Assembly: GCA_903840315.1 (NCBI GenBank) | Contig: CAIMFK010000003.1 | Coordinates: forward strand, 1-64,000 | Direction: 5' to 3' | Length of the DNA stretch: 64,000 nt | Source of the DNA: an uncultured Candidatus Saccharibacteria bacterium | GTDB lineage: Bacteria; Patescibacteriota; Saccharimonadia; Saccharimonadales; UBA4665 | Shown: one piece after another, positions 8,432-26,971 of the stretch | Layout of the letters: each line of letters begins with the position of its first letter | How positions within the stretch are numbered: position 1 is the first letter of the stretch | The notes under the pieces: generated by a model | The model's input: only the letters and a program-made list of their open reading frames with translations | Databases searched by the model: none | What the model was told of the DNA's origin: nothing | Program-made: the position numbers and the translations under genes

Positions 8432-9898
<1,467 letters not shown>

Positions 9899-9937
9899 AA
9901 AAGAATTTAAAACTTAACTTAAAATCAAAAAAATGAA

Positions 9938-14618: not shown

Positions 14619-17414
14619 TTAATCTTTTTTGATATGAAAGACTTCATCATTATTAGATGTAGGCTCATCAAGATTTATATGAAGCTCTTGATTGCTGACT
14701 ATGTCATTTTTTTCTAAATCTAAGCCATTGGGAGACAATGCTGGTCTATTGTCCAAACCGCTACTTCCACTCCTATTGGAAGGTTCTGCATCTTCAACTG
14801 ACTTTGTTGTTTTGTTTCTTTTTTGTAGCCATTGATCCAGGAAAGAGTCAGCTCCGCTTTTAGGAGATATGGGTTTATTTGTTGCGTTGGAAGGCGCTGT
14901 AGTTTGAGATAAAGGACTTTTTTGTTGAAAAATATCAGAAGGTCTCGTAGGCTCCTGAACAATAAAAGTCTTAAGCCTTTCTCTAATCTCTTGATCGACA
15001 ACTGCTCTAGGCCTACCATATTTTGCCGCTGAGAGCTGCTTTAGAGCATCTCCTAGCTGCGCATTAGGGTTACCCTGGGGTAATAAACATGTCATAGAAA
15101 AAGGCGCAGAAGGAACGCCATTAACCAATGTTCTTACGATTGTGTCCCCTGTTGCTAATCTAAGAAGATCATCAGAATCAAAGGATGGCTGGAAATATTG
15201 CTTCAGGGGCTCAGTGTCATCCTGTCCAACCCTGAAAGCAATTATAGTTCCGACGTTTCCGAATACAGCACCCCTTATCTCTTCAGATAATTGAGTAGTG
15301 AACTGGTTTGCCACTATAAGGTTCAGTCTAAATTTTCTTGCTTCACTCATAACGTCAGCGAATGAATCTGTAGAAAAGTTTTGAAACTCATCAACATACA
15401 AAGAAAAATCCACTCTATCATTTTGATCTGGAATATCAGATCTACTCATCGCAGCCACCTGGAACTTCATAACAAATATCATACCCAGCAATTTAGAATT
15501 CAGCTCTCCCGTTAACCCCTTGCTCAGGTTCACTAATAGAATTTTTTTGTTATCCATAATGTCGCGCAGATTGAAAGAACTTTTCGTCTGACCGATTATA
15601 TTTCTCATCATCTCATTCGATAGAAAGGCGCCGAATTTACTGAGCACCCAGCTTATAAGATCACCGAATTCATTAGATCTTTGTCCCTGAGGAAATTCTT
15701 TAGTCCAAAAATCTATTACTGTCTGGTCGGTACAAAACTTTAGTTTTTGCTGAACAAACTTTGGATCTGTGAATAGCTTCGGTATATCAATGAATGTTCC
15801 GCCAGCGGGATCCGACAGAAGTAACAACGCAGCATTTCTGAACATGTGCTCAAATCTTGGACCAACAAAGCCCTGCTTGTTTGGGTCATAGAGCTTATAT
15901 AGCATATTGATTGACTCTTGGATCAAGAAATCTTTCTTTTGAGGATCAGTATATTCAAATATGTTTAGTCCTAGAGGGTTATCCATATCTGATGGATTGA
16001 AATAAATAACGTCTTCGGCTCTCTCCTTAGGCACCATCGAGAGTAGCTTATCGGCTATGTCTCCGTGTGGGTCAACAAAAGCGAAGCCATTTCCGTTTAT
16101 CATATCTTGGAGCGCTAGATTTTCAAGCAGTGTAGTCTTACCTGTTCCAGTTTGACCCAAGGTATAGATGTGGCGTCGTCTATCGTCCTCACTAATTCGT
16201 ATTGGCTTCTTGATTCCTCTAAAAATATTATATCCAAGAAGTAGTCCCTTTTCAGGAATATTTCTAGGGCCATCAACTTGTTTTGAGCTCTGACGCTGAA
16301 GCTGAGATGTTGGAATATTTCTTTGATCAGGGAAATGGAACAATGTAGAGAGCTCAACTGAGTTAAGTATATTTCTTTTCTTCCTGTCAGGGAATGTACG
16401 CATTATGTAAGAAGTAACGAAATTCTCAATGTTTTCAGTTGGTCTATAGTCAAATCCATTTTTACCTGGAGCATCAAATAATGAAAATGCCGCCTTAACA
16501 TTGCCTATGATCGCCTGGGCTCTTTGATTTATATTCGATGAAGCTATAAGTCTTATGCTAACCTCGAAACCCGGATGTCTTGTCTTATCTTCGATAGCCT
16601 CGACCAATGATTGCTCGGTTGACGATAAATCTTTCCTTTCGGATGATCCATCGCCTTTTTTTTCATCAGGAACCTTATAAAACGCTATTAGCAGATGTTT
16701 AATCCACTCGATAATCAGGTCGGAACCAGCTTTAGACTTTTTACCCTTGCGCTTATCACTAGCAATCATCGATGCTTCTTTGCGCCATTCAGGATCTGCA
16801 GGTCTCATCAAAATTTGAATTCCAACACCGTCTTCTTCTGTAAGATTGGACAATGAGTTAAGAAGAGATTGAATAGCATCTCTTTTTATGTCTTGATAGG
16901 TGGCTATAGGATAAGCAAATGTTTCCTTTAAGGTTATTTCACCGCCGATAGTGCTGTTAATCTTTCCTATTTTATTGAAAATATTATGATCTTCGATTTC
17001 TTCTAGTATTGCAGATGGGTATGAGCTAATAATGGCTTGTTTTACTAGATCAACAAGTGAAATAGGAACAGAGGCATAGAAGTATACCAGCGAGCCTGTA
17101 CCGACAATTTCGAATGAAAAGTGCCTCTGGCCATAAAATTTATTCTTGAATCCTTTTTTGAAGCTGCTATTAAGAATGTTGTACATGATTTGAGCCTGAG
17201 AAATAGATTCTTCGGTGATATCTCTATTGTCTCTACCATTTGAATCAATATCTTCACTCATTGGAGGAATTTTAATTAGAAGAGTGACCATCTTAAGGCC
17301 TCTTTCGAAATTCTTTTGCTCTCTAGCAATTCTTCTGAGGTAATGAAAAATTGGCACTGATAGCACTGTTGCTATGAGCAATATTCCAAAAATAATAATA
17401 ATTACAGTAGTCAT
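14619..17414 (-). CDS. Membrane-anchored VirB4/VirD4-like type IV secretion ATPase
   Basis: 931 residues. One N-terminal membrane helix, a mixed alpha/beta region, then a RecA-type motor with P-loop GQTGTGKTTLLENLAL near residue 420, FVDPHGDIADKL, Walker B YVDEFQNF near residue 675 and a TraG-like end. The tail from about residue 790 is Ser/Pro/Asn-rich and probably disordered. Relatives are often called type IV secretion or conjugative transfer ATPases; they pump DNA or protein or power channel assembly. ATG at 17414 with AAAGGAAA upstream. The small protein 14 bases upstream is probably a partner. No other VirB genes are nearby, so the cargo is unknown. Confidence 0.8.
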   Translation of the reverse strand: MTTVIIIIFGILLIATVLSVPIFHYLRRIAREQKNFERGLKMVTLLIKIPPMSEDIDSNGRDNRDITEESISQAQIMYNILNSSFKKGFKNKFYGQRHFSFEIVGTGSLVYFYASVPISLVDLVKQAIISSYPSAILEEIEDHNIFNKIGKINSTIGGEITLKETFAYPIATYQDIKRDAIQSLLNSLSNLTEEDGVGIQILMRPADPEWRKEASMIASDKRKGKKSKAGSDLIIEWIKHLLIAFYKVPDEKKGDGSSERKDLSSTEQSLVEAIEDKTRHPGFEVSIRLIASSNINQRAQAIIGNVKAAFSLFDAPGKNGFDYRPTENIENFVTSYIMRTFPDRKKRNILNSVELSTLFHFPDQRNIPTSQLQRQSSKQVDGPRNIPEKGLLLGYNIFRGIKKPIRISEDDRRRHIYTLGQTGTGKTTLLENLALQDMINGNGFAFVDPHGDIADKLLSMVPKERAEDVIYFNPSDMDNPLGLNIFEYTDPQKKDFLIQESINMLYKLYDPNKQGFVGPRFEHMFRNAALLLLSDPAGGTFIDIPKLFTDPKFVQQKLKFCTDQTVIDFWTKEFPQGQRSNEFGDLISWVLSKFGAFLSNEMMRNIIGQTKSSFNLRDIMDNKKILLVNLSKGLTGELNSKLLGMIFVMKFQVAAMSRSDIPDQNDRVDFSLYVDEFQNFSTDSFADVMSEARKFRLNLIVANQFTTQLSEEIRGAVFGNVGTIIAFRVGQDDTEPLKQYFQPSFDSDDLLRLATGDTIVRTLVNGVPSAPFSMTCLLPQGNPNAQLGDALKQLSAAKYGRPRAVVDQEIRERLKTFIVQEPTRPSDIFQQKSPLSQTTAPSNATNKPISPKSGADSFLDQWLQKRNKTTKSVEDAEPSNRSGSSGLDNRPALSPNGLDLEKNDIVSNQELHINLDEPTSNNDEVFHIKKD

Positions 17415-17428
17415 GCCATCATTTCCTT

Positions 17429-17836
17429 TTAATCATCAGTCAGTTTTAAGTCAATACCAAATCTCTTTTTCATATACTCAGCCCTAAGCTTATTAATTTG
17501 AATATTTTGCTCCCTGGGATCATTGCTCGTAGAAGAGATGATATGCTTCGCCTTTACAATCCATTCTTTAGGAATGCTTGTTGTATCATTATCATCAATA
17601 TGACTTACATTATCCACCACTGAATTTGTTGTACTAGTTACATTTTGAGGACTAAATTTTATTGAAGAAATATCTATGGGTGTGCTGTTGTTATCTTTCT
17701 CAACATGAACAACATTATTATTGCCTATTTCTTGGTGGTTAACCAAGTTCTCAGCTGAAACATCTGAAGCAATTTTAGTCTCCCCACCTAGTGGTGGCAA
17801 GACCATATTCGAGTGGTAGTTTTGCTTATTGTCCAT
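17429..17836 (-). CDS. Uncharacterised small acidic protein upstream of the secretion ATPase
   Basis: 135 residues. The first 85 are low in hydrophobic residues and rich in Asn, Val, Asp and Ser, so probably disordered. The last 50 (IPKEWIVKAKHIISSTSNDP and then YMKKRFGIDLKL) look like a folded helical pair and are the part I would expect to be conserved. No membrane segment. It shares an operon with the VirB4-like gene. The upstream extended -10 at 17846-17851 places the transcript start about three bases before the ATG and no ribosome site is present, so this mRNA should be effectively leaderless. Function unknown. Confidence 0.75.
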   Translation of the reverse strand: MDNKQNYHSNMVLPPLGGETKIASDVSAENLVNHQEIGNNNVVHVEKDNNSTPIDISSIKFSPQNVTSTTNSVVDNVSHIDDNDTTSIPKEWIVKAKHIISSTSNDPREQNIQINKLRAEYMKKRFGIDLKLTDD

Positions 17837-17878: not shown

Positions 17879-18232
17879 TCATTTCGCAAAAGAAGATCGG
17901 TTTATATAAAAAATAGAAATTAAAACTAGTACAGCTACGGTTATTAGGTCTCTTCCTGTTAATTGCCCGATTGATTGTAGAGCTATAAGCATTGTCATAA
18001 TGAATGAGAAAGCTAAAATTATTAGTTTCCTCCTCTTAAAGATTAGCGCATTGGAGCTAGAAAATAATTTTTTAGAGATAATGTTTGAGGTGCTGAGTAA
18101 AATTAAAAATATACATATGAATGGCACCATAAAGAAGTAAACAGGCATGGTATTAGGACTAGTTAGGAAGATAATTGATAGAAAAACAAATAATGAGGCC
18201 AACAATATTAGGTTATTATTTTTTATACTCAT
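17879..18232 (-). CDS. Small four-helix membrane protein, unknown function
   Basis: 117 residues from ATG at 18232 (MSIKNNN); an in-frame TTG at 18259 is possible but sits against the terminator. Four hydrophobic segments (around LILLASLFVFLSIIFL, YFFMVPFICIFLILL, ILAFSFIMTMLIAL and LITVAVLVLISIFYI) with basic loops. I recognise no family. It lies just downstream of the structured RNA at 18295-18448 and its terminator, so that RNA could be its regulatory leader. Confidence 0.6.
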   Translation of the reverse strand: MSIKNNNLILLASLFVFLSIIFLTSPNTMPVYFFMVPFICIFLILLSTSNIISKKLFSSSNALIFKRRKLIILAFSFIMTMLIALQSIGQLTGRDLITVAVLVLISIFYINRSSFAK

Positions 18233-18261: not shown

Positions 18262-18294
18262 AAAAAAGTACTCAATAAATTTGAGTACTTTTTT
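18262..18294 (-). terminator. Bidirectional intrinsic terminator
   Basis: AAAAAAGTACTCA and its complement TGAGTACTTTTTT around a 7-base loop. On the minus strand it ends the RNA that starts near 18448. Confidence 0.75.
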
Positions 18295-18448
18295 AGTTTA
18301 TTTTGGAGCTTTGGACGATAAATCCGCTCTTTAAAAAAAATATTTAGCGCTTATCGTCCTCGGCAGACTGACCGCTCAACTGACAGTTATGACAGTTAGA
18401 GCGTTAACGGACCCTCTTGCTCCGGTGTAGTTAAACAAAATAAACTAC
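18295..18448 (-). ncRNA. Structured RNA candidate (non-coding RNA or leader element)
   Basis: A less AT-rich island in very AT-rich DNA, framed by a promoter (18455-18483) and a terminator (18262-18294). Reading the minus strand: a 5-prime hairpin GTAGTT/AACTAC, an outer stem GGAGC/GCTCC, one arm CGCTC-AACTG type (CGCTCTAACTG/CAGTTGAGCG) and a second arm with perfect GGACGATAA/TTATCGTCC topped by CGCT/AGCG. That is a multi-branch fold of about 125 bases. It matches no RNA I can name: not tmRNA, SRP RNA, RNase P, a T-box or a common riboswitch. It may be free-standing, or a leader of the membrane protein gene that follows. Confidence 0.45.
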
Positions 18449-18454
18449 CTTCTC

Positions 18455-18483
18455 AAATTAGCATAAGAATTTAATAAAGTCAA
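18455..18483 (-). promoter_or_regulatory. Promoter of the structured RNA candidate
   Basis: TTGACT (18483-18478), 17-base spacer, TAATTT (18460-18455) on the minus strand. Start predicted near 18448. Confidence 0.55.
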
Positions 18484-20387: not shown

Positions 20388-20417
20388 TAAAAAAGAGCTC
20401 ATCAGAGCTCTTTTTTA
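20388..20417. terminator. Bidirectional terminator between rplT and rnpB
   Basis: AAAAAAGAGCTC, four bases, GAGCTCTTTTTT. It serves rplT on the plus strand and RNase P RNA on the minus strand. Confidence 0.9.
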
Positions 20418-20420
20418 GTT

Positions 20421-20761
20421 CCAGATTATCCATAAGCCGGGTTCTGTTTTATCTAGTCATCTATCTAGTCTAAGTGTTGCCACTTAAATCGAGCGGATGT
20501 TGATGGATATAGTGGGAACTAGCCATGAATGGCAAAATCCATCTCCTTGCAGTAGGCAGGGTTTACCCCTTCCAGCTGTCACCAGCCAGAATAACAGCTT
20601 CTTACTTCTGTTCTTTTCACCCTTACCCATAAATGGGCGGTATCGTCTCTGTGGCACTTTCCCTAAGGTTGCCCTTGGTTGCCGTTAGCAACTGCCTTTT
20701 CCCTATACTGCCCGGACTTTCCTCTTGCAGAATATGCAAGCGACTAGTCAATAATCTGGAT
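20421..20761 (-). ncRNA. rnpB: RNase P RNA
   Basis: About 340 bases. The universal cores are present: GAGGAAAGTCCGGGC near the 5-prime end and ACAGAACCCGGCTTAT near the 3-prime end, and the two ends pair as P1 (CCAGATTAT/ATAATCTGG). It is the catalytic RNA that trims tRNA 5-prime ends. An extended -10 at 20768-20773 puts the start at 20761. Confidence 0.95.
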
Positions 20762-21543: not shown

Positions 21544-21558
21544 TAGATATTATTTTAC

Positions 21559-21691
21559 GACTGATTAGTCTGAATTGATTAGCCTGGAAGAAACCAGGTG
21601 GGTGTCCTCACCTATATGCCACGGCTTATAGAAATATTGAACTCCCGATAAAATGTTATTAAGATAATCAAATTATCAGAACTAATCAGTC
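21559..21691 (-). ncRNA. 6S-like RNA candidate
   Basis: About 133 bases. Its two ends pair perfectly over 11 bases (GACTGATTAGT/ACTAATCAGTC), extended inward by CTGA/TCAG and TTGATTA/TAATCAA. The middle is largely open, with a small hairpin CCTGG-TTTCTT-CCAGG just after ACACCCA on the 3-prime side and GGTG/CACC at the apex. A long closing stem, an open bubble and a 3-prime-side hairpin are the plan of 6S RNA, which binds RNA polymerase. A promoter places the transcript start at the first base of the stem. Identity is inferred from shape only. Confidence 0.45.
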
Positions 21692-21698
21692 AATCAAT

Positions 21699-26756: not shown

Positions 26757-26862
26757 CCAATTAATATATCAGTATTGGTAGTATAAGGCTAGTAAAATAC
26801 TATTGTTATTTATACAAAGCTAATTGTGGATAAATAGTTTTTGAATATACAGTTTGTGATAT

Positions 26863-26888
26863 AAAAAATCCCCTGCTGTATGGGGATT
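26863..26888 (-). terminator. tRNA-Val terminator
   Basis: AATCCCC, eight bases, GGGGATT then TTTTTT on the minus strand, just after tRNA-Val. Confidence 0.8.
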
Positions 26889-26894
26889 GAAATA

Positions 26895-26971
26895 TGGTGG
26901 ACCCTAGAGGACTTGAACCTCTGACCTCTTCCACGTCAAGGAAGCGCTCTAGCCAACTGAGCTAAGAGTCC
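26895..26971 (-). tRNA. tRNA-Val (anticodon GAC)
   Basis: Acceptor GGACTCT/AGGGTCC with one G-T pair, anticodon loop TTGACGT closed by CTTCC/GGAAG, encoded CCA. Single unit with its own promoter and terminator. Confidence 0.97.

Follow-up and report, generated by a model that had tools for sequence, protein, structure and literature searches.

Little is known about the regulatory and structural RNAs of Patescibacteria, and the closest described systems are 6S RNA, the RNA of the signal recognition particle (SRP), transcription-attenuating riboswitch leaders, and the orphan structured RNAs that comparative genomics has brought to light. Here we describe an element read from the minus strand at positions 18262 to 18483 of a 64,000-nucleotide stretch of Candidatus Saccharibacteria DNA ("the window": GenBank assembly GCA_903840315.1, contig CAIMFK010000003.1, positions 1 to 64,000). 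An earlier note on the same DNA had proposed a new non-coding RNA at this place or, alternatively, a leader of the four-helix membrane protein gene that follows. Literature searches on riboswitches and structured RNAs of Saccharibacteria, and on non-coding and 6S RNAs of the candidate phyla radiation (CPR), gave nothing on this RNA and no description of a regulatory or structural RNA from Saccharibacteria.

Like 6S RNA (RF00013), the new RNA has a length of about 190 nucleotides (nt), its own putative promoter and a folded structure, but it lacks the long rod with a large central bubble. With SRP RNA (RF00169) it has in common a GGUCAG tract and a housekeeping-like distribution, whereas domain IV, with its GNRA loop and AGCAG strand, is missing and the host genomes lack Ffh. 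Riboswitch leaders resemble it in the conserved promoter, the folded 5′ region and, in some genomes, the terminator ahead of a membrane protein gene; unlike them, it shows no detectable antiterminator, occurs also without that gene and has no entry in Rfam. Finally, orphan structured RNAs likewise combine conserved structure and a promoter with the lack of an assigned partner, but the order-wide, single-copy spread in Saccharibacteria and the absence of any catalogued relative distinguish the new RNA from this group.

A conserved RNA family of Saccharimonadales

A blastn search with the core of the element matched 25 of 60 relatives, some of them from other families of the order. A covariance model built from 24 sequences (model R1) was run on 198 genomes of the order Saccharimonadales and identified the RNA in 131, with one copy in each, and a model built from 92 matches (model R2) identified it in 136 of the 198, normally as a single copy. 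Several families in which R1 remained silent carry a divergent copy with a GAGCGGUCAG hairpin at the same place, and matches were also obtained in other families of Patescibacteria (G356, G451 and G500). Of these, G356 and G451 belong to different genera of one family and share their gene context, and the apical part of their second arm (GCGCUACAU...GAGCGG) is alike. Hence, the element belongs to an uncatalogued structured RNA family of about 190 nt, present normally once per genome across Saccharimonadales and with divergent members elsewhere in Patescibacteria. An additional pattern scan of named genomes returned 69 records (Saccharibacteria, Saccharimonas, Saccharimonadales, Saccharimonadia, Patescibacteria and "bacterium" metagenome-assembled genomes); as these loci were chosen for GAGCGGUCAGUC and GNUAAGCGCU, the invariance of those letters is inflated there; this selection has no bearing on the test with 24 sequences described below or on the covarying pairs of P2 that the pattern did not include.

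The structure is built on two strongly covarying arms. Arm P1 (18373–18403) comprises CGCUC...GAGCG and a variable apical stem, which exceeds that of shuffles in length (6.2 as compared to 4.0 bp). It is followed by the near-invariant single strand GGUCAGUC (18366–18373), which was found in two alignments and is retained in the divergent families. Arm P2 (18313–18359) reads GGACGAUAA-G-CGCU-(AU-rich loop)-AGCG-GAU-UUAUCGUCC, where the internal loop G/GAU is flanked by invariant AA/UU; in most relatives, a GCC/GGC extension of lower P2 is present as well (z = 8.2 in a rough swap test). In the R1 alignment of 24 sequences, 97.1% of the cells are paired and 9 of 19 pairs have changed on both sides. 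For 88 distinct sequences these values increase to 97.6% and 15 of 19, with a covariation score of 0.292 as compared to 0.144 ± 0.006 for shuffled and at most 0.058 for slid controls. The compensatory changes include swaps of G–C to A–U in up to about half of the sequences. Covariation and conservation in relatives, on which the earlier note had made its proposal depend, are thus both observed.

The minimum free energy of the minus strand is −66.9 kcal/mol, against −42.5 ± 4.2 kcal/mol for dinucleotide shuffles (z = −5.8). The plus strand is equally stable by complementarity (z = −6.0). Because both strands fold alike, the strength of the fold alone gives no strand, and the assignment to the minus strand is instead based on the promoters and downstream genes that are conserved in relatives. 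Taken together, the two arms, the near-invariant unpaired strands and a promoter conserved on one strand identify the element as a conserved RNA structure.

The multi-branched fold outlined in the earlier note holds for the two arms and for a 5′ hairpin (see below), and its outer stem has to be restricted to the genus. In the window this stem is formed by UAGUUUAUUUUG with CAAAAUAAACUA over 12 bp, its pairing competes with the 5′ hairpin, and it is weaker (9 bp) in two close relatives. Across 83 loci, the rough swap test scored the 5′ start at 13.01 against its own 3′ flank and at 12.97 against the flanks of other genomes. The outer stem is specific to the genus and no feature of the family. 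A small CGG...CCG hairpin (18408–18424) predicted by the fold occurs in close relatives and is variable elsewhere.

Promoter and transcript ends

The whole RNA gene is assigned to positions 18262–18448 (about 187 nt) on the basis of the fold, the promoters and the homologues, with the 3′ end given by the terminator and the start, near 18448, inferred from the −10 box. The frame of a TTGACT-N17-TAATTT promoter and a terminator, as noted earlier, is indeed found on the minus strand, with the −35 box TTGACT at 18478–18483 and, after a 17-base spacer, the −10 box TAATTT at 18455–18460. A general promoter scan did not list this pair, the score of which lies under the scan cut-off; the promoter is nevertheless credible because it is conserved in relatives. 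A TTG-type −35 box together with a −10-like box at a spacing of 16 to 18 bases was found in 83 of 87 related loci, almost always in the form TTGAC[A/T]-N17-TAnnnT, as compared to 20% in shuffles that preserve base composition only.

The 5′ hairpin of the window, GUAGUU...AACUAC (18427–18448), recurs in most relatives as GUAAGU-(AAAACAAAAAC)-ACUUAC within about 10 bases of the promoter. Of 84 loci, 73 have a 5′ stem of at least 5 bp, as compared to 55% for shuffles that again preserve composition only, and 72 have an A-rich 5′ motif. The conserved promoter and 5′ hairpin make the predicted start of the RNA credible. At the 3′ end, an intrinsic terminator hairpin with U-tract lies at 18262–18294. 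Under a strict rule, terminators were found in 24 of 79 loci, compared to 2% in shuffles, and in two outgroup copies (L134 and L182) a U-tract follows P2 itself. Judged from these sequence signals, the RNA has its own predicted promoter and 3′ end, as an independent gene for a non-coding RNA would.

Independent RNA or leader

About 30 bases separate the terminator from the ATG, at 18232, of the neighbouring gene (17879–18232, minus strand), which encodes a 117-aa four-helix membrane protein of an orphan family and would be the candidate target of the RNA in a leader role. It is followed on the same strand by a gene for a 135-aa protein (17429–17836), which has no Pfam or NCBIfam match and whose relatives carry a C-terminal DLIEKEWV-type motif, and then by a gene for a VirD4/TraD-like ATPase of 931 aa (14619–17414; sub-threshold NCBIfam matches). 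Next come gyrB and gyrA. Upstream of the RNA and in the opposite direction lie genes which we take, from their sequence, to be infC, rpmI and rplT. The order RNA, four-helix gene, DLIEKEWV protein, VirD4-like ATPase is found in the named loci, infC-rpmI-rplT lies upstream in most loci long enough to show that region, and the wider synteny is likewise conserved within the order, beyond the pair of RNA and gene.

The reading we prefer, with modest confidence, is that of an independent gene for a trans-acting, structured non-coding RNA in conserved synteny. The RNA would be transcribed strongly and constitutively from the conserved promoter, and its 3′ end would come from the intrinsic terminator, in some lineages from P2 itself, or from processing where no terminator is seen. 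It may act in trans as a protein-bound scaffold, in which proteins would recognise the GGUCAGUC strand and, within P2, the AA-G/GAU-UU internal loop, and in which an A-rich 5′ loop would stay free to form base pairs or to contact proteins. Under this reading, the four-helix gene would be mainly a syntenic neighbour. The independent RNA is favoured because the RNA occurs without the gene, because no antiterminator is seen and because copies exist in which P2 is followed by a U-tract. Of the two options left by the earlier note, the non-coding RNA is thus preferred; the leader keeps some probability, since the gene follows the RNA in nearly every Saccharibacteria genome.

The main alternative is a cis-acting leader in the 5′ untranslated region of the four-helix operon, where sensing of a ligand or protein would change how far transcription passes the terminator or how accessible the start codon is. 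We regard this as rather unlikely, albeit as a serious contender. Several observations support it and weigh against an independent gene. The four-helix gene lies downstream in 144 of 154 RNA loci, close behind the RNA in 143 (some genomes are counted twice; of the ten loci without the gene, three end early, and in L155, one of the ten, the sequence stops 637 bases past the RNA). Several terminator-less loci have the ATG only about 20 bases beyond P2, so that these copies abut the start codon, and RNA and four-helix gene are probably co-transcribed there, as far as the layout of these loci indicates. The pair is kept even in G296 and G431, from another order of the class, where pheS takes the downstream place of the VirD4 operon (G296 also has trpS on the upstream side); in G253, a divergent arm and a terminator precede the four-helix gene. 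Two points concern the evidence for the independent gene itself: each of the outgroup hits lacking the four-helix gene is weak by itself (E between 2e-6 and 2e-4 per genome), and the shuffle controls for promoter and hairpin have the limit given above. Moreover, riboswitch expression platforms typically come both with and without a terminator, and such a mixture is what the family displays.

The association of the RNA with one and the same downstream gene, which pointed to a leader, holds inside the order and is broken by the outgroups and by two losses of the gene; these outgroup contexts and losses tipped the balance to an independent RNA. The RNA was kept and the four-helix gene lost in G068 (L144) and in G175 (L244). 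Four outgroup hits come without the gene; among them, the related RNA of G356 and G451 is flanked by recA on one side and by a dksA-like gene with lspA on the other (recA-RNA-dksA-lspA), and in G500 a copy is found near rny. In L060, a gap of 530 nt lies between the RNA and the four-helix gene. Nor do the terminator arms compete with leader pairing, as no excess of antiterminators was detected (2 of 23 arms with p ≤ 0.05 on either side). Conversely, some four-helix genes have no such RNA, for example where they overlap cdaA.

Of 192 genomes sampled across the phylum, 54 gave a match to the four-helix family; the weakest of these matches may be due to chance. A fold search with the AlphaFold2 model (predicted local distance difference test score, pLDDT, of 87) gave no match in the PDB, with a best E of 2.7. 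As an orphan family of about 115–130 aa it spans Patescibacteria (L133, L156, L169 and L171–L177); in the examined loci outside Saccharimonadales the gene lies directly upstream of pheS, and in L172, L174 and L175 it overlaps a diadenylate-cyclase-like gene. In distant Patescibacteria, other structured-looking intergenic regions precede it, in L177 (open reading frame at 1467) and L173 (open reading frame at 1476), one of them with a AAAAACAAAAAC tract; these regions gave no Rfam match and are possibly far homologues of the RNA.

Returning to the independent RNA, a single-copy RNA with near-invariant strands that is kept order-wide in reduced genomes points to an important function. A more specific idea, which we put forward as speculative and improbable, is that it forms the RNA part of a ribonucleoprotein of Patescibacteria that is so far undescribed and may be essential, in a lineage that has lost the SRP, perhaps linked to the membrane via the four-helix protein as its usual neighbour. 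About equally doubtful is a dual role, in which a stable, trans-acting RNA is processed from the operon mRNA or terminated before it and the terminator sets basal expression of the operon. This would reconcile the conserved adjacency with the retention of the RNA after loss of the gene. Cultured oral Saccharibacteria with genetic tools exist (PMC10633639), and these tractable strains make the role of the RNA testable.

Comparison with known RNAs and further observations

As the earlier note had supposed, the RNA resembles no catalogued family: cmscan against Rfam 15 (window and 15 related loci, also with permissive thresholds) gave no match on the RNA strand and only sub-threshold matches on the opposite strand. 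In scans of the window and the own genome, RNase P RNA, transfer-messenger RNA (tmRNA), ribosomal RNAs, S-adenosylmethionine (SAM) and cobalamin riboswitches and an L10 leader were all located elsewhere. RNase P RNA was rejected as an identity, as it has a separate gene at 20417–20759 of the window. The same applies to tmRNA, since ARAGORN found none in the window and the gene of this genome is at L229:7915–8320. A blastn comparison with plasmids was likewise set aside, with matches confined to the terminator part. The RNA is probably not 6S RNA, and RF00013 gave no match at its locus. A 6S RNA match was obtained at 21554–21695 of the window (minus strand), beside a tRNA-Pro gene; at 35.5 bits it stays under the curated 46.4, and it probably represents the divergent 6S RNA of this lineage.

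A highly divergent SRP RNA has to be considered in this context. With RF00169, 30 of 31 Saccharibacteria were blank and none gave a match above its cut-off, compared to 11–12 positives among 14 control genomes, and the GGUCAG of the new RNA occurs in SRP domain IV as well. However, none of 21 Saccharibacteria genomes (the own genome and 20 relatives) has the M domain of Ffh (PF02978), for which 14 of 14 controls were positive, and in the family alignment no arm capped by a GNRA loop carries AGCAG on the strand facing GUCAG. Nor did pattern searches reveal a convincing SRP domain IV element in the own genome. As the M domain of Ffh is missing too, no SRP protein is there to bind the RNA; it is thus no overlooked SRP RNA in the known sense, and we consider this identity very improbable. 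Loss of the SRP in CPR bacteria has already been published (PMC4508563, PMC8080830). In G038 (L157/L178; 81% complete), where the new RNA was not found, an SRP domain IV-like element scored 22.5 bits (E = 0.012), which may be compatible with chance given the 31 genomes searched.

The weakest explanation, that the locus gives rise to no RNA and is either a DNA element or a fold arising by chance in AT-rich sequence, would fit the ability of inverted repeats to fold on either strand but is refuted by the compensatory changes, the conserved unpaired strands and the promoter conserved on one strand, which leaves it a negligible probability.

Some further features were noted in passing. A match to HPnc0260 antisense RNA at 26791–26933 of the window (plus strand; 58.8 bits, cut-off 59) overlaps a tRNA-Val gene on the opposite strand and is probably a tRNA artefact. 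The 16S gene is found in the window at 8432–9900 and the 23S gene on another contig. The 23S match at L220:2116–5841 (minus strand) extends over about 3.7 kb as compared to 2.9 kb for the model, and an intron or other insertion is suggested by this difference. At L189:3900–4227 (plus strand), three consecutive tRNA-like genes have an unusual length of 93–97 bases, one of them with a reported four-letter anticodon.
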